Source: Egibacteraceae bacterium (GTDB taxonomy: Bacteria; Actinomycetota; Nitriliruptoria; Euzebyales; Egibacteraceae). Taken from it: a stretch of DNA of 46,875 nucleotides. The stretch lies in assembly GCA_040905805.1 (NCBI GenBank), contig JBBDQS010000035.1, positions 1 through 46,875 on the forward strand. The letters run 5' to 3'. The translations under genes were made by a program, and so were the position numbers. Of this stretch, positions 4,261 to 39,145 are shown one piece after another (the stretch's first letter is position 1; each line of letters begins with the position of its first letter). The notes below the pieces were generated by a model. That model made no database searches, was not told where the DNA came from, and saw only the letters and a program-made list of their open reading frames with translations.

Positions 4261-6298
4261 TGTCGACGCCGAGCGCGCGCACCAGGAAGGCGAGGACGTC
4301 GGCGCGCTCGTCGATCAGCTTGGCGGTTGGCTTGCCCGCGCCGTGCCCCGCGTCGGTCTCGATGCGGATCAGCGTCGGCGGCCCACCCGGGTCCTGGGCA
4401 GCCTGCAATGCCGCCGCGAACTTGAACGAGTGGGCGGGCACGACCCGGTCGTCGTGGTCCCCGGTCGTGATCAGGGTGGCGGGATAGCGCGTGCCCGGAA
4501 CGAGGTTGTGCAGCGGCGAGTAGGCCCGGACCCAGGCGAACTGCTCGGGGTCGTCGGGGTCGCCGTAGTCGCTGGTCCACGCCCAGCCGATCGTGAAGCG
4601 GTGGAACCGCAGCAGGTCGAGCACGCCCACCTCGGGCACGCAGGCGCCGAACAGGTCGGGGCGCTGGACCACGCAGGCCGCCGCAAGCAGCCCGCCGTTG
4701 GATCCGCCCTGGATCGCCAGGCGCTCGGGGCGTGTCCAGCCCGCATCGACCAGCCACTGCGCGCACGCGATCGCGTCGTCGAAGACGGTCTGCTTATTCG
4801 CCAGCCGGCCGGCGTCGTGCCAGCCGCGTCCGTACTCCCCCCCGCCCCGGAGGTTGGCGACGGCCAGGATCCCGCCCCGCTCCAGCCACACGAGTCCCGC
4901 CACCCCGAACCCGGGGGTGAGGGAGATGTTGAAACCCCCGTAGCCGTACAGCCTGGTCGGCGCCTGCCCGTCGGCCTCGACGTCACCACGCCGAACGAGG
5001 AACATCGGGACCCGCACGCCGTCCGGGCGCTCCACGAAGACCTGCTCGGCCACGTAGGCGTCGGCGTCCACGTCAAGGCTCGGCGGTTGCACGAGGGTCA
5101 CGCGCTCCGTCGCCACGTCGACGCGGTAGACGGTCTGGGGCTGGGTGTAGGTGACGACCCCGACGTGGAACGCGTCGTCGGCGGCGCGCCCGGTCAGGCT
5201 CGATACCGTCGCGATATCGGGCAGGGCGACGTCCGGACCGGGTGTGCCGTCCAGGTCGTGCAGCCGCAGCCGACTCCGTGCGTGGTGCAGCCGAACAACC
5301 ACGAGACGACCGCCGACGATGCGCGCGCTCTGCAAGGTGTCCTGCCCTTCCCCGACGACCTCGCGCATGCGCGTCGGGTCCGCCGCGTCGAGCGCCACGA
5401 CCCGCATGCGGGGGGCATCGCGGTCGGTCAGCACGTAGAGCTCGTCGCCGTCGGTGCCGACCACGAAGTAGGCGGCATCGTGGTCGTCCAGCAGCGGCCG
5501 CAGTGCCGTGTCCACCCCGAGCTCCTGAACCCACACCCGTGTGCGGGGGTCGGTGCCCTCCGAGATGTGCACGACGAGCCAGCGCCCGTCCTGGGTCACC
5601 GCGGGCGACAGGATCCAGTCGGGCTCGTCGGGGCGGGCGTACACCAGCACGTCGTCGTCCTGGGCGTCGCCGAGCCGGTGGTAGCGCAGCTGGTGGACCC
5701 GGTTGGCCTCGGCGTGGTCGCCGCCCTCGCCCGGCGCGTCGAAGCGCGCGTAGTAGAAGCCGGTGTTGGCGGGCGACCACGCCGCCCCGGCGAACTTGCT
5801 CCACGCCAGCTCGTCGGACCTGTCCGCGCCGGTCGCGACGGCCCGCACCCGCCAGGTCATCCAGTCCGAGCCGGCGGCGCTGGTCGCATAGGCGAGCAAC
5901 GTGCCGTCCTCGCTGAGCGATGTCGCCGAGAGGGCGACCGTCCCCTCGGCGGACAGCTCGTTGGGGTCGAGCAACACGCGGCCCGGCTCGCCGGGTGCCG
6001 CCATGGTCCACAGCACGTCCTGGTTCTGCAGGCCGGTGTTGCGCATCTGGAACCAGGAGCCGCCACGCCGCCACGGGGCGCTGGCGCGCGGGTGGTCCCA
6101 GAGCTCGGCGAGCCGCGCGCGGATGGCCGGGCGGGCCGTGACCTCCCCGAGCCAGCGCTGCGTCACCTGGTTCTGCTCGTGGATCCAGTCGCGCACAGCC
6201 GGGGCGTCGGGGTCCTCCAACCACCGGAACGGGTCGGCGACCGGGGTGCCGTGATAGTCGTCCACCTGGTCGACGGTCGGCGTGTGCGGGTAGTCCAT
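4256..6298 (-). CDS. Prolyl oligopeptidase family serine peptidase (S9A)
   Basis: The 680-residue protein matches prolyl oligopeptidase in length and layout. It starts DYPHTPTVDQVDDYHG and DPFRWLED, the typical N-terminal segment, then has a beta-propeller region (about 75-410) and an alpha/beta-hydrolase domain. The triad is visible: Ser in GGSNGG (about 533), Asp in GDHDDRV (about 617), His in DAGHGAGKP (about 652). These enzymes cut short peptides after proline. I chose the ATG at 6298 because MDYPH matches the family start; the extension to 6337 is unlike it. No signal peptide is seen, so it is probably cytoplasmic. The two paralogous lipoprotein genes flank it, both on the opposite strand. 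Confidence 0.95.
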   Translation of the reverse strand: MDYPHTPTVDQVDDYHGTPVADPFRWLEDPDAPAVRDWIHEQNQVTQRWLGEVTARPAIRARLAELWDHPRASAPWRRGGSWFQMRNTGLQNQDVLWTMAAPGEPGRVLLDPNELSAEGTVALSATSLSEDGTLLAYATSAAGSDWMTWRVRAVATGADRSDELAWSKFAGAAWSPANTGFYYARFDAPGEGGDHAEANRVHQLRYHRLGDAQDDDVLVYARPDEPDWILSPAVTQDGRWLVVHISEGTDPRTRVWVQELGVDTALRPLLDDHDAAYFVVGTDGDELYVLTDRDAPRMRVVALDAADPTRMREVVGEGQDTLQSARIVGGRLVVVRLHHARSRLRLHDLDGTPGPDVALPDIATVSSLTGRAADDAFHVGVVTYTQPQTVYRVDVATERVTLVQPPSLDVDADAYVAEQVFVERPDGVRVPMFLVRRGDVEADGQAPTRLYGYGGFNISLTPGFGVAGLVWLERGGILAVANLRGGGEYGRGWHDAGRLANKQTVFDDAIACAQWLVDAGWTRPERLAIQGGSNGGLLAAACVVQRPDLFGACVPEVGVLDLLRFHRFTIGWAWTSDYGDPDDPEQFAWVRAYSPLHNLVPGTRYPATLITTGDHDDRVVPAHSFKFAAALQAAQDPGGPPTLIRIETDAGHGAGKPTAKLIDERADVLAFLVRALGVDS

Positions 6299-23987: not shown

Positions 23988-24521
23988 TCACGACGCGGTC
24001 TTGGGTGCACCCCGGATCTGGCGGTAGGCGATCGTGACCGTGCTCTTCACGAAGTGCGCGAGGAACCCGGGGGGGCTCGTCCCGCGCGGCGGCAGGATCT
24101 CGATCTGCTCGAGCATCTGCAGCAGGTCGGAGGCCTTCCAGACCTCGACGACCTTGCTGTCCTCCAGGCGGTAGATGATCAGCTGGGTCATGTCGAAGGA
24201 CTTGTAGGTCGGCGGGATCCCGAACATCGAGCCGTCGTGGGTCCCCTGCCACCGCCAGCGGGCGACGACCTTGTCGCCGGCGCCCCAGATCTGGTCGATG
24301 TTGGCGACGAGGTCGGTGGCCGCGTTCCGCAGGTAGCCCACGTGCAGCTTGAACGACGCGAGGCCGTTCTCCTCGCCCGGCTGGCGGTCGTGGTCGACCG
24401 CGTCCTCGGCGATCAGCTCGTCGGCGAGGTCGATGTTGCCCTCGGTCCAGATCTCCACCAGGATGCGGCGGACGATCTCGCAGTTGCGTTCGACGATGCT
24501 GTCGCTGCTGATGTCGGTCAT
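23988..24521 (-). CDS. SnoaL-like polyketide-cyclase-family protein
   Basis: The 177-residue protein has the alpha+beta barrel pattern of SnoaL/NTF2-like proteins: NCEIVRRILVEIWTEGNIDLADELIAEDAVDHD, the YLRNAATDLVANIDQIWGAGDKVVARWRWQGTHDG strands, and KVVEVWKASDLLQMLEQI. SnoaL relatives cyclise polyketides or act as ester cyclases, but many have other roles. It is the last gene of the operon with the KSIII-like and flavoprotein genes, 16 bases after the flavoprotein stop, so an action on the same product is inferred. The C-terminal extension after position 150 is basic. Confidence 0.85.
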   Translation of the reverse strand: MTDISSDSIVERNCEIVRRILVEIWTEGNIDLADELIAEDAVDHDRQPGEENGLASFKLHVGYLRNAATDLVANIDQIWGAGDKVVARWRWQGTHDGSMFGIPPTYKSFDMTQLIIYRLEDSKVVEVWKASDLLQMLEQIEILPPRGTSPPGFLAHFVKSTVTIAYRQIRGAPKTAS

Positions 24522-24537: not shown

Positions 24538-26058
24538 TCAGGCCTGGGGAACGGCGCGGAAGTCCGGTAGCGCGTCCGGCGCCCCGCTCTGGTCGAGCAG
24601 GATCTGGGCGGTCATGATCCCGGCGAAGAACGAGCGCAGGAAGCTCCCGCCGATGCTCGTCCACTGGCTGCACAGCAGCAGGTGGTCGACGGGCGTCACC
24701 GGGGTCGGACGCTTGCTCTCGGTGTGCGCCGGCGTCTGCTCCCAGCTGTGGATGGCCCCGCCCCGGTTGAGCGAGAACCGTTCCACGGTGAGCGGCGTCG
24801 CGCTCTCCACGAACGTGAGGTCGTCGGTGAAGCCGGGCAGGATCGTGTCCAGCTCGCCCAGGAGCTTCTGGGTGCAGCGCTCCTTGATGTCCGCCCACGG
24901 GGTGCCCACGTCGTAGGGGGTGATGGCCTTGCAGACGACGATGTGCTCGCCCTCGGGGGCGACGCTCGGGTCGAGCAGCGACGTGGGTGTGATCCAGCGG
25001 ACACCGAAGTCCCCCACCGACGTCATCCGGTAGGACTCCTCGTGGTCCCACGACGCGTGGGTGAAGATCTGGTGCGGAAGGTCCCATGCCGACAGGTCGA
25101 GGCGGCTGGCCGCGAACAGCAGGAACGCCGATCCCGAGACACGCATCCGCGACAGCTTGCGCAGGTACTTGGACGGGACGTGCTCGTCGGCCACGAGCTG
25201 CTCGAACGTCTGGAACGGGTCGGCGCCCGAGAGGACCCAGTCGGCGTGCAGCTCCTCCCCGTCGGCGAGGGTCACGCCGCGCGCACGCCCGTCGCTCACG
25301 GGGATGGCGGTGACACGGCAGCCCGTGCGGATGGCGCCGCCCCGGCTGGTGATGGCATCCGCCAGTGCGTGGATCAGTCGTTCGACACCGCCCTCGATCG
25401 CGAACAGGTCGTCGGTGTGCACGGTGGTGAGCTGCGCGAACGTCTGGAAGGCCGCCATGCTGGGCGGGACGCCGAGGTACTGCCAGGGCACCGCGCAGAC
25501 GGCCTTGGCCCGGGGGTCGTCGATGTACTCGTCGAGCACGTCGGCCAGGGTCGACTGGCGGTAGCGGAACATGTTGGGTGCGGCCGCGACGGCCGCATCG
25601 AGGTCGCGCAGGTGCAACGCCGCAGGCATGTCGTGGGCCTCGCGATGCACGGTCCGGCACATCTCCCAGAAGCCGCGGATGCCCTCCGCCTCGTGGGGGA
25701 AGGCCTCGACGTGGGTCTCCACGTAGCCTTCCCGGTCCGCCGGCAGGTCGATCGCGTAGTCGGGCAGGATCGCCCGGTAGAAGTGCTCCGAGGGGATGAA
25801 CGTGCAGCTGTCGCGCACGCCGAGGAGCTGGAGGACGCCGCCGAACAGCTGCTGGTCGGCCAGCAGGTGCACGGCCGGGTCGAAGGTGTACTGGCCGTGG
25901 TCGCCACGCTGGAACGCGTGGGCGTACCCGCCGAGGCCATCGGCCTGCTCGCACACCACCACCCGCCGCCCGGTGTAGGCGAGCAGCGCCCCCGCCGTGA
26001 GCCCGGCGATGCCGCTGCCGATGACGATGACGTCCGCGTCGAGGTCGTGCTCGGTCAT
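24538..26058 (-). CDS. Phytoene desaturase/CrtISO-like FAD oxidoreductase
   Basis: The 506-residue protein starts with a Rossmann FAD-binding segment DVIVIGSGIAGLTAGALLAYTG and CEQADGLGGYAHAF, as in phytoene desaturases, carotenoid isomerases and retinol saturases. The middle holds the VERLIHALADAI and LHADWVLSGADPF segments, and the C-terminus has the second FAD-contact region (CSQWTSIGGSFLRSFFAGIMTAQ). It would oxidise or isomerise a polyene or related lipid; substrate unknown. No phytoene synthase is nearby. Its ATG overlaps the KSIII stop by four bases (ATGA), so the operon is translationally coupled. Confidence 0.88.
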   Translation of the reverse strand: MTEHDLDADVIVIGSGIAGLTAGALLAYTGRRVVVCEQADGLGGYAHAFQRGDHGQYTFDPAVHLLADQQLFGGVLQLLGVRDSCTFIPSEHFYRAILPDYAIDLPADREGYVETHVEAFPHEAEGIRGFWEMCRTVHREAHDMPAALHLRDLDAAVAAAPNMFRYRQSTLADVLDEYIDDPRAKAVCAVPWQYLGVPPSMAAFQTFAQLTTVHTDDLFAIEGGVERLIHALADAITSRGGAIRTGCRVTAIPVSDGRARGVTLADGEELHADWVLSGADPFQTFEQLVADEHVPSKYLRKLSRMRVSGSAFLLFAASRLDLSAWDLPHQIFTHASWDHEESYRMTSVGDFGVRWITPTSLLDPSVAPEGEHIVVCKAITPYDVGTPWADIKERCTQKLLGELDTILPGFTDDLTFVESATPLTVERFSLNRGGAIHSWEQTPAHTESKRPTPVTPVDHLLLCSQWTSIGGSFLRSFFAGIMTAQILLDQSGAPDALPDFRAVPQA

Positions 26059-27182
26059 GGGTGTTCCCGCCTGTCTTCCCGCCCGCCGGTGGGGACGGGA
26101 TCATCGCCCCAGGTCGGCAGCGTCCAGTCGAGGACGACGCCGGCGTACTTCCACTTGCTCGTCTCCAGGGCGTCGAGCATGACCCGGTGGCCCTGCTTGA
26201 CCAGGCCGGTCGTGACGGCATGGTCCAGCGCCAGGGGCACCGCCGCGGTGCCGGTCGCCCCGACCAGCGCGAGGTTCTCGACGACCCGCGGCTGGATGGT
26301 CAGCCAGTCGGCCGTGTCGACGTCGGCGCCCTCGAACTCCTCGACCATGTAGCCGGCGTTGCCCTCGGGGATGATGCACACGTCGATCTCGTCGGCCTTG
26401 GCCCCGCTGCCCTTCAGGATCGCCCGCAGCGACTCGACGAGCAGGTGAGGGGTGAAGCGGCCGGACTCCACGACGTCGACGTCGAGGACAACAAGGTGCT
26501 TCGCTTTGAGCTGCTCGTGGATCGGGGCGTGGGTGCCGGCGCCGACGATCTGCATCCCCGGCCGTTTCTCCCCGCCGATCGACCCCATGGCCGAGCCGAT
26601 GATCCCACCGTCGCGGTCGTCGGCCGCCAGCACGACCGCGCCGGCTCCGTCGCCGAAGTTGTAGGGGTTCATGCGGTCGCGCATGCGGATCTTGTCGGGC
26701 GCCTTGCCGTAGAAGACCGGGACCAGCAGCGGCGAGATGCTCTCGCTGCCGACCACCAGCGCGTTGGTGTAGTCGCCCCGCTCGAGGTAGAGCCGGGCGA
26801 TGTCGAGGGCCTCGACGAACCCTGCGCACCCGGACCGGATCTCGACCGCGGCGCACGACCGGATGCCCAACCGCTCCTGCAGCAAGGTGGCCATGGGCGG
26901 CAGCAGGAACTCGGGGCTGGCGGTCGACGACACGATCAGCTCGACCTCGGCGGCCTCGATGCCGGCCCGGTCCAGCGCCGTGACGGCGGCGTTGAAGGCC
27001 ATCTCGGAGTTCGCGAACCGGTGCTCGCCCGTCTTGGGGTCGACCATCCAATGACGGGTCTTGACCTGGATGCCCTCGAGCACCTCGTCGGGCAGCGGGC
27101 CGACCAGCTCGAGCAGATCGTCGTTGGTGATGGCTTCGCCGGGGAGGAACGAGCCGGTCCCCACCACATGTGCCGTCGCCAC
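26055..27182 (-). CDS. KSIII (FabH)-like thiolase-fold protein with altered catalytic residues
   Basis: The 375-residue protein has the ketoacyl-ACP synthase III fold. The N-terminal half has VVGTGSFLPGEAITNDDLLELVG and the nucleophile Cys119 in SGCAGF, then NFGDGAGAVVLA. In FabH the second and third catalytic residues are His in a PHQAN-like segment and Asn in GNTSAA. Here the aligned segments read IIPEGNAG (Glu273 at the His position) and LVGATGTAAVPLALD (Ala309 at the Asn position); this alignment is by eye. Family uses include fatty-acid initiation, OleA-type condensation and acyl transfer. Start is GTG with GGGAGGG six bases ahead. First gene of a three-gene operon. Confidence 0.88.
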   Translation of the reverse strand: MATAHVVGTGSFLPGEAITNDDLLELVGPLPDEVLEGIQVKTRHWMVDPKTGEHRFANSEMAFNAAVTALDRAGIEAAEVELIVSSTASPEFLLPPMATLLQERLGIRSCAAVEIRSGCAGFVEALDIARLYLERGDYTNALVVGSESISPLLVPVFYGKAPDKIRMRDRMNPYNFGDGAGAVVLAADDRDGGIIGSAMGSIGGEKRPGMQIVGAGTHAPIHEQLKAKHLVVLDVDVVESGRFTPHLLVESLRAILKGSGAKADEIDVCIIPEGNAGYMVEEFEGADVDTADWLTIQPRVVENLALVGATGTAAVPLALDHAVTTGLVKQGHRVMLDALETSKWKYAGVVLDWTLPTWGDDPVPTGGREDRREHP

Positions 27183-29316: not shown

Positions 29317-29495
29317 GCGCCGATCCTAACCCGCCGGGTGTGGGTCGCGAGAAACCCCTATTTTCAGGCGTAGCGCACGTGTTTGGCCATTGTGAGCGTC
29401 TCAGGGTAGAGCTGCCATCGCGCGCAGCATCCCCGCTCACCGGGACCCGCGCTGGGACCGGTTGTGCAGCACCCGAGGCGTACCGGAGGCATCCC

Positions 29496-30968
29496 ATGAC
29501 TGTGACCAACGGCGTGAGCCGACCCGCTCTGCGACTCAGCGCGGTGTTGGTCGCGCTGACCATGGCGTTGGCCCTGCTGCCCCGCACTGGCGCCGCGCAG
29601 GATGCTGACGATGCGTGCCCGGAGGCGGCGCCGGAGTCGGACTTCAGCGATCGTGACAAGATCCCTGACGCGCACGTCGGGAACGTCGATTGCGCCGCGC
29701 ACTTCGACATCGTCAGCGGTTTCGAGGACGGCACCTACCGGCCGCAGTTTCAGGTGCGACGCGACCAGATGGCGTCGTTCATCGCGTTGATGCTGGACGC
29801 GGCAGACGTGGAGCTGCCGCAGGGAGACGCTGACACGTTCGACGACGTGCCCGACAGCAACGTGCACGCCGACAACATCAACCGCCTCGCCGCCGCAGGC
29901 ATCGTGGAGGGCGGGCCGTTGGGTCTGCCCGCGAACGAGTACGGTCCCGAGCTGCGGACCCGGCGTGACCAGATGGCCTCCTTCCTGATGCGGGCCGCCG
30001 GTTTCGCCTTGCATGACGACATCGACGCGTTTGACTCCAACGACCAGCAGTTCACCGACGTGCCGTCGGGCAACGCGCACTTCGCCAAGGTCAACGGCGC
30101 GGCCAAGAACGGCATCGCCCAGGGCACCGGCGGTGGGCTCTACGCCCCGAGGGAGGAGACCCGCCGTGACCAGATGGCCACCTTCGTGGTGCGCCTGCTG
30201 TGCTTCCTGATCTGTGACAGGGACGGCCCGGTGCTGGACGTCGTGCTTGACCCCACCTCCTGCGAGATCGGCGGGGAGCTGACCGCCACGGCCACCTTGA
30301 GCATCGAAGGTGACCCGGTCGAGGGCCAAGACGTGGACTTCGCCACGTCGGGTGTGGCGACCACACCGGACGCAGGCAGCGCCGAGACCGATGCTGCCGG
30401 CGAGGCCGACTTCACCTTCACCGTCGTGGGCGCCGGCACGCTCACGGTGACCGCGACGTGGAGCAGCAACGGGCAGGACGCAACCGGGACCGCGCAGATC
30501 GACTGTGGCGTCGTGGCTGCGTGGGACGTGGCCCTGTCGTGGCTCAACGAGGTCGACGACTCCGATCCGGACAACCCCGAGTTCAGGCAGGGCGAGGAAG
30601 GCACCACCGGTGACGCGCGGCTGGTCGTGACCGAGCTCGCCGGTTCCCACATGTTGGCGTTCGAGCTGGACGCGTCAGCGGTGACCGCACCGTTCTGCGA
30701 CGCCCCCGGGGCGCACCTGCATCAGGGCGGCCTCGACGAGAACGGTCCGGTGGTGGTGTTCTTCGCCACCTGCGCCGACTTGCAGGCCACCAACGGTGTG
30801 GTGGCGGGCGAGCTGACCGACGACGACTTCAGTGGCGGCGTGACCATCCAAGACGTGCTGGACGACCCCGAGAGCTTCTATGTCAACGTGCATTCGGCAG
30901 CGTTTCCGCCGGGGGCGATCCGCGGACAGCTACCCGACGGTGGGCAAGGCCTGATCCCCCAGCCCTAG
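29496..30968 (+). CDS. S-layer homology protein with Ig-like and CHRD domains
   Basis: The 490-residue protein begins with a signal peptide (residues about 8-35, cleavage likely after GAA). Three SLH domains follow (about 45-105, 108-170, 180-240), each ending in an RRDQMASF/RRDQMATF segment. An Ig-like domain (about 245-335; DPTSCEIGGELTATATLSIEGDPV) and a C-terminal CHRD domain (about 345-480; HLHQG, NVHSAAFPPGAIRGQL) complete it. It should be secreted and bound to the cell wall by the SLH domains. It lies 11 bases before the halogenase-like fusion gene, so both are likely on one transcript. Eight or so Cys residues suggest disulfides. Confidence 0.92.
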   Translation: MTVTNGVSRPALRLSAVLVALTMALALLPRTGAAQDADDACPEAAPESDFSDRDKIPDAHVGNVDCAAHFDIVSGFEDGTYRPQFQVRRDQMASFIALMLDAADVELPQGDADTFDDVPDSNVHADNINRLAAAGIVEGGPLGLPANEYGPELRTRRDQMASFLMRAAGFALHDDIDAFDSNDQQFTDVPSGNAHFAKVNGAAKNGIAQGTGGGLYAPREETRRDQMATFVVRLLCFLICDRDGPVLDVVLDPTSCEIGGELTATATLSIEGDPVEGQDVDFATSGVATTPDAGSAETDAAGEADFTFTVVGAGTLTVTATWSSNGQDATGTAQIDCGVVAAWDVALSWLNEVDDSDPDNPEFRQGEEGTTGDARLVVTELAGSHMLAFELDASAVTAPFCDAPGAHLHQGGLDENGPVVVFFATCADLQATNGVVAGELTDDDFSGGVTIQDVLDDPESFYVNVHSAAFPPGAIRGQLPDGGQGLIPQP

Positions 30969-30979
30969 CAGGAGGAGCC

Positions 30980-33550
30980 TTGGCGCAGCGCATCGACACC
31001 GGCGAGCTCGAGGCCCGGTTCGGCGGCCTCGCCGCCGACCTCGAGCATGACGAGATCGCGGCGCTGGCGCTGCGCCTGCGCCCCCTCGAGCTCAACGCCG
31101 GGGAGGTGCTGATCACCGAGGGCACCCCGACCGGCGGTCTGCACCTGGTGTGGGAGGGAGCCCTCGACGTCGCCGTGGGCAACGCGAACACGCACGTCGG
31201 CACGGTGGAGCGGGGCGGGTACGTCGGCGAGGTCTCGCTGCTCGATCCCGGACCGGCGAGCGCCACCGTGCGCTCCGAACAGGGCGCGACCGTGCTCGTG
31301 CTCGATCCCGAGGAGCTCGCCTCGTTCGAGGAGGCCTATCCGCGCGCCGCGGCCGCGCTGCTCCACGAGCTTGCGCGGGTGCTCGCGCAGCGCGTTCGTC
31401 TGTCCGCCCGCCAGCTCCCGGCCACGGCGCTCGATGCGCCGATCGTCGCGGGGGTCGGCGAGGCGCCGCCTCCCGGCGTCGACAACCTGTCGGACGCGCC
31501 GACGCGATTCACCGCCGGCGCGCTCCTGGCCCAGGGCGGTCGCCGGGCAGCGGGGGCCTACCTCATCCGTTCGGGCACGGTGCTGCGGACGATGACCGCC
31601 GACGACGGCGGCGCCGAACTCCTCGCGTTGCCCGCAGGGGCGATCGCCGGGGCGGAAGCGCTCCTGCCCGCCGTCCTCGCCACCGACCTCGTCGCGGACG
31701 GGGAGGTCGAGGCCAGCCTGCTCCCGACCGCCGAGCTCGCTCGGCAGGCCCACGCCGACCCGCTGCAGTTCCTCGCCGTGCAGCGGGCCGTCGCCGCCGA
31801 GCTGGCTCGCGAGCTCCGTGCCCTCACCGTCGCGCACCAGCAGCTGGCGCCGCGGGTGACCCCGAGCGCGACGACCGACGTGGCCGTCATCGGCGGTGGG
31901 GTGCTCGGGCTCGCCTATGCGTGGTTCGTCAAGGAGGCGGCGCCCCAGACCGCCGTGACCGTGCTGGAGCGCCGATCGTCGCCGGGCTACAAGATCGGCG
32001 AGAGCACGCTCGGGACCACCACCCGCGCGATGCAGCGGATGGGGTTGAGCTTCCCGGTCATGCGTCGCCTCTTCGGCATCAAGGCCGGGATCCGTTTCTG
32101 GTGGACGGGCCCCGGCGACCCGCAGCTGCATGGTCATGTCGACGCCGGCGACGTCGATGAGACCTTCCAGGTGGAGCGGCGCGTCCTCGAGACCGCGCTC
32201 ATGGAGACCGCGCGCCGCCGCGGCATCGACGTCCGTGCGGGCACGAAGGTCCAGGTCCCGACAGCAGAGATCAGCCGCGACGGGGCGCGTCTGCCATGCG
32301 CGGACGACGCCGGCCGGTACGACCTGGGTGCGCGGCTCGTCTGCGACGCCTCCGGTCCCGCCGCCGTCCTCACCCGCAGGTTCGGCCTGTACCGACGGGC
32401 GCCCGAGCGTCTCGGCACCTTCAACACCCACTCCTACTACGCCTACTTCAGGCAGAAGCAGGACGTGGCCGAGCGGTTCTGGGATGCACCGGCAACCCGC
32501 CACATCTGCTTCGAGCAGGGCTGGTGCTGGTTCATCACCGTCACCTCGTGGGAGGGCACACCGCAGGAGAACCTGGAGGCGATGATCCGTTTCCTGCTCG
32601 ACCACCCGGAGGGGCGGGACGAGTCCTACCCGACCCGGCGCGACCTCGAGAACCGGTTCGGCTGCCGCAGTGAGCCGATCTTGAGCGTGGGCTTCACCGT
32701 CCGCGAGGACCTGGACACCGCCGGCGGCCTGTCGCTGGAAGGACGGTTCCGCCACTACCTCGACCGCTATCCGGTGATCCGCGGGATCCTCGACCACTAC
32801 GAGCCCCTGGCAGCGCCCTACGGCAAGAAGCCCTACTCGGCGTTCCTGAACCTCGTGCACGATGCCTCGGCCGTCACCGGCGACGGGTGGTGCGCGGTCG
32901 GGGACGCGGCCGGCTTCACGAACCCGCTGTTCTCCCCCGGCTTGACGTTCGGGACCGGCACCGCCTACGAGGCGGCACAAGACACCGTCCGGGCGCTCGC
33001 CAGCCGTGACGTGTCGCGGGCGTCCTTCCGCGCCTACCAGCACTACGCCGAGCGCATGCACCCAACCCTCATGGCCTTCAACGACATGCTCTACCGCTCC
33101 TTCCGGCAGCAGCAGACCTTCGAACGGGCTTTGGCCATGTTCCTGTTCCACAGCGCGGGCGATGTCCTGCAGCGCGAGGTCTACTCCGACACCGACCCGT
33201 ACGTCTGGGACCTCCTCAACCCCGAGTTCACCCGGCGCGTCGACGAGGTGCGGCGGGTCCTGCGCACCGCTGAACAGCGCGGGAGCGACCCCGAGGACAC
33301 GGCCCGCGAGGTCCGCGAGATCACCGATCCCTACATCCGCAGCGTGCTGGACCGCCCGGAGATGCGCGACATGGACCTCCGGCCTGCCCTGCGGGAGTTC
33401 GACGCGAGCGGCGAGCGCCGCGGCGACCGGCACCCCGAGCCCGGGCCCTTCACCGCCGTCCGCTGCGGGGACTGCCGGCTGTTCTACGACGGGGTGCTGG
33501 AGCGCTGCTGCGTGTGCGGGGCCGACCGTGCCGTCGGGATGCCGGTCTAG
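30980..33550 (+). CDS. cNMP-binding-like domains fused to flavin halogenase-like monooxygenase and zinc ribbon
   Basis: The 856-residue protein starts at TTG with AGGAGG five bases ahead. Residues about 20-140 match a cyclic-nucleotide-binding fold (AGEVLITEG...GEVSLLDPGPASATV), but the Arg usual before SAT is Ala. Residues about 170-285 look like a second, more degenerate copy. Residues about 297-720 are an FAD monooxygenase: VAVIGGGVLGLAYAW, KIGESTLG (338-345), GWCWFIT (514-520, compare halogenase WxWxIP), GDAAGFTNPLFSPG (641-654). The C-terminus has CGDC...CCVCG (829-846), a zinc ribbon. No signal peptide, so cytoplasmic. Geranylgeranyl-reductase relatives are the main alternative. Confidence 0.85.
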   Translation: MAQRIDTGELEARFGGLAADLEHDEIAALALRLRPLELNAGEVLITEGTPTGGLHLVWEGALDVAVGNANTHVGTVERGGYVGEVSLLDPGPASATVRSEQGATVLVLDPEELASFEEAYPRAAAALLHELARVLAQRVRLSARQLPATALDAPIVAGVGEAPPPGVDNLSDAPTRFTAGALLAQGGRRAAGAYLIRSGTVLRTMTADDGGAELLALPAGAIAGAEALLPAVLATDLVADGEVEASLLPTAELARQAHADPLQFLAVQRAVAAELARELRALTVAHQQLAPRVTPSATTDVAVIGGGVLGLAYAWFVKEAAPQTAVTVLERRSSPGYKIGESTLGTTTRAMQRMGLSFPVMRRLFGIKAGIRFWWTGPGDPQLHGHVDAGDVDETFQVERRVLETALMETARRRGIDVRAGTKVQVPTAEISRDGARLPCADDAGRYDLGARLVCDASGPAAVLTRRFGLYRRAPERLGTFNTHSYYAYFRQKQDVAERFWDAPATRHICFEQGWCWFITVTSWEGTPQENLEAMIRFLLDHPEGRDESYPTRRDLENRFGCRSEPILSVGFTVREDLDTAGGLSLEGRFRHYLDRYPVIRGILDHYEPLAAPYGKKPYSAFLNLVHDASAVTGDGWCAVGDAAGFTNPLFSPGLTFGTGTAYEAAQDTVRALASRDVSRASFRAYQHYAERMHPTLMAFNDMLYRSFRQQQTFERALAMFLFHSAGDVLQREVYSDTDPYVWDLLNPEFTRRVDEVRRVLRTAEQRGSDPEDTAREVREITDPYIRSVLDRPEMRDMDLRPALREFDASGERRGDRHPEPGPFTAVRCGDCRLFYDGVLERCCVCGADRAVGMPV

Positions 33551-35540: not shown

Positions 35541-35784
35541 CCGACGCGCCGTCCTGCAGGGCACCTACTTGGCCGTCGACCCCGAGCAGGTCCGGCGGCA
35601 CCTGGCCGCCCTCGACGGCCTCGTGGCGTTCGCCGGCGCGGTCGAGTCTCACCTCGGTGAGCAGCCGGCTGACCCGCCGGGTCCCGGGGGTGTGAACAGC
35701 GGCTGCCGCTGTCGGCTGTGGACAGACGCCGCTGGCGGGGCGAGCATGGCGGTAGCGTTGCCACATGGACCAAGGAGGGCGACC
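35541..35784 (+). other. Coding-like remnant ahead of the Uma2 gene
   Basis: From a TTG at 35569 the frame of the Uma2 gene reads AVDPEQVRRHLAALDGLVAFAG and VESHLGEQ with strong G/C third positions, then degenerates into non-coding sequence before the Uma2 start. It may be a piece of a small helical protein (ESX-associated proteins have similar starts, a weak resemblance) or the tail of the broken PEP-enzyme gene. No start signal is clear. Confidence 0.3.
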
Positions 35785-36339
35785 GTGGCTGTCTCTACCG
35801 GCGCCGGCATGGCGCAGGCCCAGTTGGCGCGGCTGGAGGCTGAGGGCAAGCTCGACGAGGCGTTGCGCTACGAGATCCTCAACGGCGAGCTGGTGGTCCG
35901 CGGGTTCCCGCTGATCGCCCACGAGGAGGCGGTCAACGTGCTGATGGTGCACCTCCTCTCCTGGACCCACGAGCATGGCGGCAAGGTGTTCGCGGGTGCG
36001 GGCATCGAGATCGGCGCGCAGCAGCTCGGTCCCGACGTGGCGTTCATCGGCCCCGAGCGGGTCGGCGAGCTTGACGCCGACGGCTTCCACGTCCCGCCCG
36101 ACCTGGTCGCCGAGGTGACCTCGCCGGGCACGCGCAGCCTGGACCTGCACGAGAAGCGCGACATCTACCAGGAGCTGGGGGTCGGGGAGTACTGGGTGGT
36201 GGACCTGCGCCGCCGGCGGGTGCTGGTCCACCGCCTGGACGCCGCCGACGAGGCCCGCACGGTCACCAGCGGCACGCTGGTCACACCAGTCGCGCCGGGT
36301 CTTGGCGTCCCGGTCGCCGAGCTGTTCGCGGGCCGGTAG
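35785..36339 (+). CDS. Uma2 family endonuclease-fold protein
   Basis: The 184-residue product starts at GTG with AAGGAGGG five bases ahead. It carries the Uma2/DUF820 motifs of a PD-(D/E)xK-like fold: LGPDVAFIGPERV, LVAEVTSPGTRSLDLHEKRDIYQELGVGEYWVVDLRRRRVLVH, with Asp, Glu and Lys in the expected order (D in GPDVAF, E in VAEVTSP, K in HEKRDIY). Function of this common family is unclear; some members are linked to mobile elements. It converges with the subtilase gene, with 21 bases between stops. Confidence 0.9.
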   Translation: MAVSTGAGMAQAQLARLEAEGKLDEALRYEILNGELVVRGFPLIAHEEAVNVLMVHLLSWTHEHGGKVFAGAGIEIGAQQLGPDVAFIGPERVGELDADGFHVPPDLVAEVTSPGTRSLDLHEKRDIYQELGVGEYWVVDLRRRRVLVHRLDAADEARTVTSGTLVTPVAPGLGVPVAELFAGR

Positions 36340-36360
36340 CGCCTCTGGCCACATGCGGCG

Positions 36361-37635
36361 CTACTGGAAGGGCTGGCGCCAGCCGAACGTCGGGCGGCCG
36401 TTGGCCTGGTGCAGGGCCCGGGCGGCATGGCCCGTGAGGTTGGCCAGCAGCAGTCCGACGGCGATGCCGGCCGGCACCATGGGCTGCGGACGAGACTCGC
36501 CCTCGCCGACGACGCCGGGCACGTCCAGGACCATCTCGATCCGCTCGTCCAGGGGCGGCAGCGGCTCGGCCGGCGGCACCTCCTCGACCGGCTCGGGGGC
36601 CGGCACCGGCTCCGGTGACGGCGGCGCCATCGGGACGGGCGCGGGCTCAGGCGCGGGCACCGGCTCGGGAGCCGGCGGGGGTGGCGGAGGCGGCGGTGGC
36701 GCCGCAGGCGGCGGCGCGCCCTCCGCGGTGGAGACGGCGGTCGCGGCGGCAGCCAGGTCCACCACCCCCGCTCCCCCGGGTCCGGGCCGGGCCGTGGCGA
36801 ACAGCAGCTCGCGCACCTGCTGGGGGGTGCGCCCCGCGCTACGCAGGATGGCCGCCCCACCGGACACGACCGGCGCGGCGAACGAGGTGCCGTCCGCGCG
36901 GGCGTAGCCGCCCTGGATGTAGGTCGAGATGATCTCCACCCCGGGCGCGAACAGCGTTCGTGCGTCGCGGTTGGAGTGTGGCCATGCCCGGCTCTGCCGG
37001 TCGCTCGCCCCGACGACGATGACCGGGGTCTGCGGGGCGTACGGCGTCGTCGCACGACCCTCGTTGCCGGATGCGGCCACCACGACCACGCCGGCCGCGT
37101 GCGCCTCGGCGATGGCCGTCTCCACGTCGCTGCCGATGATCCCACCGCTCCCGCCCGTCAGGCCCGGCGCCTCCGCCAGGCTCAGGTTGATGACGTCCGC
37201 CCCGTTGCGCGTGGCCCACCGCACCCCCTCGGCGACGTCCTCGGAGCTGCCGGTCCCGCCGCTGTCCAGCACGCGCACGGGCAGGATGCTCGCCTGCGGG
37301 GCGACCCCCACCCCGCCGACGCCGTTGCCGAGCACCGCGGCGATGACGCCGGCGACCAATGTGCCGTGCCCGTTCGGGTCATCGGGCGGGGTGCCCGGCT
37401 CGATCAGGTCGACACCGCCCCGGACACGCCCGGCGAGGTCGGGATGGGCGGCGTCGACCCCGGTGTCCACCACGGCGACCACCACGTTGGCGCCCTGGGT
37501 CAACGCCCACGCGTCGAAGGCGCCGACCTGTGGCAGGTGCCACTGCTCGGGCACCAGCGGGTCGTCGGGTGGGATGACCGCGCCCAGCGCCAGGCTGGAC
37601 AGCAGGACAAGGCCCCAGGCGAGCGCGCGACGCAT
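36361..37635 (-). CDS. Membrane-anchored subtilisin-like protease
   Basis: The 424-residue protein has a signal peptide (residues about 1-20), an S8 catalytic domain with Asp57 (VVDTGVD), His90 (NGHGTLVAG) and Ser251 (DGTSFAAPV), then a Pro/Ala/Glu-rich linker (about 300-365) and a hydrophobic segment near the C-terminus (VPAGIAVGLLLANLTGHAARALH). This layout recalls mycosins of type VII secretion but no other ESX gene is present. Chosen start is ATG at 37635; the longer frame is Pro/Arg-rich. It is 121 bases downstream of the cyclase gene on the same strand. It would act outside the cell. Confidence 0.93.
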   Translation of the reverse strand: MRRALAWGLVLLSSLALGAVIPPDDPLVPEQWHLPQVGAFDAWALTQGANVVVAVVDTGVDAAHPDLAGRVRGGVDLIEPGTPPDDPNGHGTLVAGVIAAVLGNGVGGVGVAPQASILPVRVLDSGGTGSSEDVAEGVRWATRNGADVINLSLAEAPGLTGGSGGIIGSDVETAIAEAHAAGVVVVAASGNEGRATTPYAPQTPVIVVGASDRQSRAWPHSNRDARTLFAPGVEIISTYIQGGYARADGTSFAAPVVSGGAAILRSAGRTPQQVRELLFATARPGPGGAGVVDLAAAATAVSTAEGAPPPAAPPPPPPPPPAPEPVPAPEPAPVPMAPPSPEPVPAPEPVEEVPPAEPLPPLDERIEMVLDVPGVVGEGESRPQPMVPAGIAVGLLLANLTGHAARALHQANGRPTFGWRQPFQ

Positions 37636-37756
37636 AGCAGCAAGAATGACAGGGCGGCGCCTCCGCCGCACCTGCCCGACCGGCACTCCCGGGCGCGACC
37701 ACCGGCGGTGGGCGCCCGTGCCGAGGCGTCGGGCCGGGGGAGCAGCGCTGTGAGGC

Positions 37757-39145
37757 TCAGGCCGGCAGGTGGTGGAGCACGTAGGCGGTGACCGGCTCGG
37801 CCTTGCCCTTGATCTGCAGCGGGGGCAGGGCCTCGACGACCACCCCCTCGGGCAGGGACGCGCGGGTGCCCTCACCGATCAGCACCCCCCCGACCGGGGC
37901 CTGGGACTCGAGCCGGGCCGCCAGGTTGACCGTGTCGCCGATGAAGTCGTGCTTGCGGTGCCCCCGCTCCCCGACCACCCCGGCGGCGACCGCCCCGCTG
38001 TTGACCCCGACGCGGAACCGCGGCCAGTCCGGGTTGGCGGCGGCGACCTCGGTGGCGACCTCCTGGAAGGCCAGTGCGGCGCCGGCGGCGAGTCGGGCGT
38101 GGTCGGGCTGGCCGCCGTGCTTGTTGAACACGACCATGATCGCGTCCCCGATCAGCTGGTGGACGGCACCGCCGTGCTGCTGCATGAGGGGGATGAGGCG
38201 CGCGAAGTAGACGTTGAGCATCGCCTGCACCTCCTGGGGCTCAGTCCGTTCGGAGTAGGGCGTGAACCCTTGCAGGTCCGCGAACAGGATGCTCGCCTCG
38301 GAGGTCCCGTCCAGGGTGTGTTGGAGGTAGAGGGCGCTGAACCGCTCCTCGTGCCACTCCTGGCGGGCCGCGCCGGCGATCAGGCCGAACGCGGCGAGCA
38401 TGAGCACGTGCCACTCCCACCAGGACAGGCGCCAGTTCACCGCCGCCGTCAGGACGACCAGGGCGGCGGCGAGCAACGCGAACGCCACGGCGAACGCGAG
38501 CACGATCGGCGTCCCCCGGCGCTGGTACAGCCGCAGGTAGCCCCACGCGCCGGCCGTGTACCCCAGCACCCCGACGACAGCGAAGGCGAGCTGCCAGCCA
38601 CCGAGGGTCTCCCGCGCGACGGCGTCGGCCAGCGGCGGGAGCTGCGCGACCGAGAGGACGGCCCACACGACGATCAACGCGAACAGCGCGGTCATGATCA
38701 GCCGCGAGCGCGCCATGATGCGCTGGGCCGTCGTCGGCGAGAGCTCGATGGCCGAGAGCGCGGCGAACACGCCCCCCACGACCAGGCCGACCGGTGTCGC
38801 CAGCTCGAACCCCGCGTTCGGGCCGAGCAGCACCCCGGGGGTCGCGAGCGCGTGCAGGCCCAAACCGCCCGCGGCGGCGATGAAGGCCATGGAGACCATG
38901 AACAGGCGCGCGTCCCGGCGCCGGCGGGACGCCGCCGTCACGGTGGAGCCGAGAGCCGTGGCGATCACCGCCGCGGCCAGCACGAGCCAGAAGTGCGCGG
39001 GGTGGTTCTGCCACAGGCCGTCCAACGCCGGTCGCAGCCGCAGGACCGCCAGCAGCGCCAACGGGGCCAGCACGGCCACGACCACCACGGCGACCCCGAA
39101 GGTCTTGCGTCGCGTCTGGGTCTCGTTCGTGTCAGCGACTGGCAT
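37757..39145 (-). CDS. Membrane class III adenylate/guanylate cyclase
   Basis: The 462-residue protein has about seven or eight hydrophobic segments in residues 15-262, then a class III catalytic domain. Metal Asp290 lies in SILFADLQGFTPYSE and Asp334 in LIGDAIMVVF. The dimer-forming Asn407 and Arg411 are in DTVNLAARLE. At the base-selecting lysine position (usually DKFIGDA) it reads HQLIGDA, that is Gln330, while Asp400 stands in the second position (by-eye alignment). It makes cAMP or cGMP from ATP/GTP if active. Its stop is 12 bases from the end of proB, so it may be in the obg-proB transcript. Confidence 0.92.
   Translation of the reverse strand: MPVADTNETQTRRKTFGVAVVVVAVLAPLALLAVLRLRPALDGLWQNHPAHFWLVLAAAVIATALGSTVTAASRRRRDARLFMVSMAFIAAAGGLGLHALATPGVLLGPNAGFELATPVGLVVGGVFAALSAIELSPTTAQRIMARSRLIMTALFALIVVWAVLSVAQLPPLADAVARETLGGWQLAFAVVGVLGYTAGAWGYLRLYQRRGTPIVLAFAVAFALLAAALVVLTAAVNWRLSWWEWHVLMLAAFGLIAGAARQEWHEERFSALYLQHTLDGTSEASILFADLQGFTPYSERTEPQEVQAMLNVYFARLIPLMQQHGGAVHQLIGDAIMVVFNKHGGQPDHARLAAGAALAFQEVATEVAAANPDWPRFRVGVNSGAVAAGVVGERGHRKHDFIGDTVNLAARLESQAPVGGVLIGEGTRASLPEGVVVEALPPLQIKGKAEPVTAYVLHHLPA

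Follow-up and report, generated by a model that had tools for sequence, protein, structure and literature searches.

A predicted MalA-type flavin-dependent halogenase joined to cyclic-nucleotide-binding domains in an Egibacteraceae bacterium

In flavin-dependent halogenases (FDHs) a reductase supplies FADH2, a flavin C4a-hydroperoxide yields hypohalous acid, and a lysine transfers it for electrophilic halogenation. We know of no halogenase with a sensor domain of its own, control being exerted, so far as is known, by gene expression and flavin supply. Can such an enzyme also be gated by a ligand-binding domain on the same chain? The question is raised by a gene on a 46,875-nucleotide stretch of DNA from an Egibacteraceae bacterium (hereafter the window, meaning this whole stretch), in which a first-pass annotation had seen a halogenase-like enzyme fused to two cNMP-binding-like domains and a zinc ribbon, and had proposed that secondary chemistry would thereby come under direct small-molecule control. 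Here we consider the cyclic-nucleotide-binding (CNB) domains, the catalytic part and their genomic surroundings.

The gene and its cyclic-nucleotide-binding domains

The gene (30980..33550, plus strand) encodes 856 aa from a TTG start that agrees with the N-termini of relatives in genomes MGR_bin257 (L013) and AC_58 (L014), and the Shine-Dalgarno-like sequence AGGAGGAG lies 5' of this start (30970..30977, plus strand). GC by codon position in the frame is 0.74/0.51/0.93, which is of the coding type, and homologues of the protein are present in other genomes. The annotated reading frame is thus real, homologues and codon bias together ruling out a chance ORF. An 822-aa ORF that overlaps the gene on the minus strand is the usual shadow ORF, in DNA of 73% GC.

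Pfam places PF00027 (cNMP_binding) on two stretches of the protein (4.7e-19). Domain 1 (residues 37-116; 31088..31327, plus strand) alone reaches 2e-13 and 50.6 bits against a cut-off of 27.5; it belongs to the CNB family, in agreement with the CAP-type first domain of the annotation, and the N-terminus lies inside the CNB fold. Its closest solved relatives are cAMP-binding PKA and Crp domains. Domain 2 (residues 176-255; 31505..31744, plus strand) alone reaches 1.7e-5 and 25.1 bits, slightly below the curated cut-off of 27.5. Its AlphaFold model (pLDDT 82.6) was built from an alignment containing bona fide CNBs and therefore leans toward the CNB fold; in Foldseek it matches cAMP-bound GlxR, Vfr and CRP at ~1e-7. 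The model supports counting domain 2, despite the sub-threshold Pfam score, as the second and more degenerate cNMP-binding-like domain that had been proposed.

The phosphate-binding cassette reads GELALIYGTPRAATV in PKA RI and GEVSLLDPGPASATV in domain 1 (31226..31270, plus strand). The ribose-binding Glu is kept and the phosphate-binding Arg has become Ala93, a change common to the fused relatives in MGR_bin257 and AC_58. In domain 2 the cassette is degenerate (GAEALLPAVLATDLV; 31649-31693, plus strand), with neither Arg nor Glu at the usual place, and the role of this domain looks structural. Both the Ala in the first domain and the lost motif in the second had been noticed before. Five further CNB fusions encoded in this genome, to PPOX, FHA-ABC, FHA-MMPL, malic enzyme and acyl-CoA oxidase, keep the Arg. 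Domain 1 is 41-46% identical to the CNBs of the MGR_bin257 and AC_58 relatives and 29-34% identical to these five, so the CNB-FDH pairing is no recent local event. Metabolic enzymes that bear a CNB seem common here; one protein of 1132 aa carries a CNB on MaoC/acyl-CoA dehydrogenase/acyl-CoA oxidase parts (L019, 2136-5534) and another carries it on malic enzyme (L018, 1709-3619).

As the ribose-binding Glu is kept and the phosphate-binding Arg lost, the residues of domain 1 suggest a ligand that is probably other than cAMP bound in the usual way. The regulatory subunit of trypanosomatid PKA is alike in having its Arg replaced and a ligand other than cAMP; this eukaryotic kinase regulator binds purine nucleosides, with a Glu gained at the A202 position (PMC10959531). 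The equivalent residue in domain 1 is Ser86 and not Glu, and this nucleoside mode was rejected. Neither mode fits domain 1, so that a ligand may be absent.

The main rival to gating follows this line and is a real, if tentative, possibility: the CNB pair would be a ligand-free scaffold for dimerisation, or for docking with other CNB-bearing pathway proteins (PPOX, the ABC and MMPL exporters), on an enzyme that does halogenate and is ungated by any small molecule. The Arg lost in domain 1 and the cassette lost in domain 2 point in this direction. So does Labedaea rhizosphaerae DSM 45361 (L011), in which the first CNB is a 155-aa gene of its own (4970-5437) and would work by protein contact; it overlaps by ATGA the next gene, which encodes 735 aa with a degenerate CNB fused to FDH and zinc site, and the two-CNB layout is thus present in split form. 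CNB domains also stand on several proteins encoded in the C48 cluster and the AC_58 locus described below. What speaks against a scaffold is the good conservation of the rest of the domain 1 cassette (the Gly-Glu and its surroundings, common to the two fused relatives at the identities given above), which is unusual for a disused pocket.

The halogenase domain

PF04820 (Trp_halogenase) matches the protein at 1.5e-17, with 64 bits against a cut-off of 21. Sequence, profile, structure and motifs agree on an FDH domain at residues 298-752 (31871..33235, plus strand), which contains on the same strand the GxGxxG flavin-binding motif as GGGVLG (residues 305-310; 31892-31909), KIGESTLG (residues 338-345; 31991-32014), GWCWFIT (residues 514-520; WCWFIT at 32522-32539) and FxxPxxSxG (32915-32941). 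A CxxC-x10-CxxC follows at the C-terminus (CGDC 829-832 and CCVC 843-846; 33464..33517, plus strand). KIGESTLG, GWCWFIT and the C-terminal cysteines all lie where the first-pass annotation had put them. FxxPxxSxG is our reading of the Fx.Px.Sx.G motif named in PMC8407142, and it is invariant in all seven bacterial relatives. Equally invariant is Lys368 (32081-32083, plus strand), the equivalent by alignment of Lys108 in MalA, which is catalytic (PMC9144378); roles of MalA residues are taken from reviews throughout.

MalA, the malbrancheamide halogenase of Malbranchea (MalA/MalA'; PDB 5WGR-5WGZ), is the first of the zinc-binding FDH class, and its substrates are complex and late-stage (PMC8407142, PMC5945002). 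MalA' is the best sequence match of the window protein (8.8e-56; 31% identity to MalA), and a profile of the seven bacterial homologues matches it (5WGT) at 1.6e-112 over chain residues 37-618, zinc cysteines included. C829, C832, C843 and C846 align with CSGC...CHSC of MalA, which gives a predicted zinc site. A full-length model of the window protein has a mean pLDDT of 72.6, residues 149-256 being unreliable; in a structure search of the PDB MalA' was again best (E 5.9e-31, target-length TM 0.72), and the next matches, PltM, CtcP and PltA, are halogenases too. The two proteins are alike in the whole-length FDH fold, KIGESTL, the catalytic Lys, a WxWxI without Pro, FxxPxxSxG and the C-terminal CxxC...CxxC zinc site. 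Sequence and model thus argue strongly for a bacterial MalA relative as the catalytic part.

This kinship alters two earlier readings. The cysteines had been taken as a zinc ribbon module fused on, which we reject since they are MalA's own zinc site and belong to its class. The lack of Pro in WxWxI had been remarked on as well: Thr does replace it, and the full WxWxIP of the strict tryptophan halogenases PrnA and RebH is absent, but this is neither a departure from halogenases nor an argument against halogenation, as MalA itself has WVWVIR. MalA differs in being fungal and in having no CNB domain. Its Glu494 aligns with Asp728, tentatively since the stretch is weakly conserved, and its His253 with Ala505, which points to a substrate pocket different from that of MalA.

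It is quite unlikely that the catalytic part, instead of halogenating, acts as a flavin monooxygenase or reductase that kept the fold. Weak NCBIfam matches to geranylgeranyl-reductase and GoxB, a best score of any kind far under the CmlS cut-off, and the missing Pro could be taken in its favour, but no solved relative is nearly as close as MalA, a proven halogenase with the same Pro-less motif; the protein retains the catalytic Lys, FxxPxxSxG and the zinc cysteines, and the linked cluster includes a flavin reductase gene. A non-halogenating reductase family was rejected on the first of these grounds, and the halogenase-like character that had been proposed stands.

Recurrence and genomic context

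Relatives in genome contigs were found with an alignment that included MalA; a single-sequence query found none. A search for the same domain order elsewhere had been suggested, and the CNB-FDH pairing does recur in three other actinobacterial genomes, as a single CNB fused to the FDH in MGR_bin257 and AC_58 and in split form in Labedaea. The zinc-site end of the AC_58 copy lies in another frame (L014, 7372-7649), so this copy is either frameshifted or affected by an assembly error. FDHs without CNB are found in tandem on a second AC_58 contig (L012), with a zinc site in a Myxococcota genome (L016), and alone in Pleurocapsa (L015). On the tree the CNB label needs two changes, which fits one gain with a loss as well as two gains. 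The Myxococcota FDH (L016, 5914-7734) is the sister of fungal MalA (support 100/99; sequence match 3e-104) and, to judge by its sequence, is possibly a bacterial relative of the fungal MalA class; its gene adjoins one for a Spondin_N protein. On AC_58 contig C53 (L041) tandem MalA-type FDHs stand with acyl-CoA-dehydrogenase-like and SnoaL genes.

The CNB-FDH fusion is rare in the genomes sampled. It was found in one of 101 genomes comprising the own genome and its relatives and in one of 396 of the phylum, each time the own genome, as well as in 2/129 of the order of AC_58, 1/297 of the family of Labedaea and 1/395 drawn from the phylum of AC_58. In the large searches the scoring took in just a few candidates per genome, which should suffice for matches this strong. 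No relatives were found among the viral contigs searched, and plasmids gave only remote FDHs (~25% identity).

Just upstream of the FDH gene a surface-type protein with SLH, Big and CHRD parts is encoded in the same direction (29340..30968, plus strand). It ends 11 bases 5' of the FDH start, and the two genes are probably co-transcribed. Both are missing in a genome of the same genus (G001), where the nadD-proA interval measures 0.9 kb against 4.2 kb here. Further upstream, on the minus strand, are a KASIII (FabH/DarB-like; 26055..27182), a CrtI-like/amine-oxidase-like desaturase (24538..26058) and a SnoaL-like polyketide cyclase (23988..24521), separated from the FDH by two housekeeping-type genes and nadD. 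They are 53% identical to the KASIII, 42% to the desaturase copy and 31% to a SnoaL copy on another contig of the same genome (C48). Ten genomes were searched for such a KASIII (E up to 1e-30), and it was found in the own genome only, at these two places.

C48 carries a type II PKS/FAS-like cluster with FabG, ACP, FabZ, ketosynthases, SnoaL, FAD monooxygenase and KASIII, and in addition a flavin reductase (PF01613; 18411-18929 on C48), a second FDH-like gene, CNB-PPOX, CNB-FHA-ABC and CNB-FHA-MMPL. The second FDH-like gene is of KVGEST type (14742-16109 on C48; L017 2743-4110) and is interrupted by deletions and shifts of frame, which are either genuine or due to misassembly. The exporters, ABC-2 and MMPL, are adjacent (L017 7867-14172), and both have N-terminal CNB and FHA parts that are 63% alike; transport proteins next to a polyketide-type cluster here bear a pair of signalling domains each. 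On AC_58 contig C154 (L042) the CNB-FDH overlaps a relative of this second FDH-like gene, and an ABC-2 permease, SnoaL genes, a flavin reductase, CNB-PPOX and a lone CNB lie within ~12 kb; flavin reductase and CNB-PPOX are 62% and 52% identical to those of C48. CNB-PPOX of this kind occurs in two of 32 genomes searched, the own genome and AC_58, and was not found in Labedaea or MGR_bin257. A gene set common to two distant genomes supports a functional link, and the context suggests a two-component halogenating pathway; in the own genome, a draft assembly, FDH and flavin reductase cluster are on different contigs.

A class III nucleotide cyclase with N-terminal membrane-type segments (37757..39145, minus strand), one of two in the genome, lies 4.2 kb downstream of the FDH gene and is a possible source of a CNB ligand. 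Together with Uma2 and subtilase genes it lies between proA and the proB region (35569-39145); in G016 the flanking genes adjoin, without these three. Ordinary cAMP control, by which domain 1 would bind cAMP or cGMP from this cyclase and gate the FDH, is very unlikely: the cyclase and the cAMP-binding nearest solved relatives of domain 1 fit it, but the cyclic-phosphate Arg is Ala in all three fused relatives that have the domain 1 cassette and is kept in the five other CNBs of the genome, and proA and other genes separate the cyclase from the FDH.

Possible function and meaning

We hold with middling confidence that the protein is a two-component, zinc-containing MalA-type FDH with a regulatory CNB pair at its N-terminus, at work in a polyketide-type pathway specific to the lineage. 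FADH2 for the FDH domain would come from a separate flavin reductase; by the chemistry of the family the domain would form the flavin-C4a-hydroperoxide and from it hypohalous acid, and Lys368 would pass this on for electrophilic halogenation of a large aromatic or polyene substrate, probably at a late stage. The CNB pair would act as an allosteric gate on the FDH domain. Several points weigh against a gated halogenase: with the Arg lost and domain 2 degenerate the CNB pair might have no ligand, two MalA residues are replaced (Asp728, Ala505), the gene is not beside the reductase cluster in its own genome, Labedaea has no CNB-PPOX, and the FDHs of L012, L015 and L016 work without CNB.

Mycobacterial Pat acetyltransferases are regulated by cAMP. 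They resemble the window protein in having an N-terminal CNB on a catalytic domain (4AVA, 4ONU; NF058543), with a weak sequence match to domain 1, and by this analogy the CNB pair is a plausible sensor of the FDH; they differ in having one CNB and an acetyltransferase as catalytic domain. Family 2B encapsulins also have a CNB fused to a part that is no transcription factor, and cNMP control of secondary metabolism has been proposed for them (PMC8346489), but the CNB partner is a capsid protein. A link of the window protein to encapsulins was rejected, as NF041163 gives 31.5 bits against a cut-off of 400, over the CNB stretch only, and an HK97-type capsid domain with CNB insert is absent. Halogenases with an extra domain are known as well, namely KrmI (ThiF), XanH (flavin reductase) and AoiQ (methyltransferase) (PMC8407142), but their partners are enzymes and none is a CNB.

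In the literature searched no description of a CNB and halogenase fusion was found, in line with the first-pass annotation, which was not aware of one. What is new here is a MalA-type FDH joined to CNB domains, both parts being of known kinds. A further, unlikely extension is a halogenated-polyketide pathway in which halogenase, accessory oxidase and two exporters all bear CNBs and of these only the halogenase answers to a ligand that is not cAMP (e.g. a pathway product or a nucleoside), which would put synthesis and export under two separate small signals.

The MalA class of zinc-binding FDHs, which is of use where complex molecules are to be halogenated at a late stage, is now represented in several bacterial groups. 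If the CNB pair does gate catalysis, the protein would be a natural switchable halogenase, and its CNB domain one with a ligand still to find.
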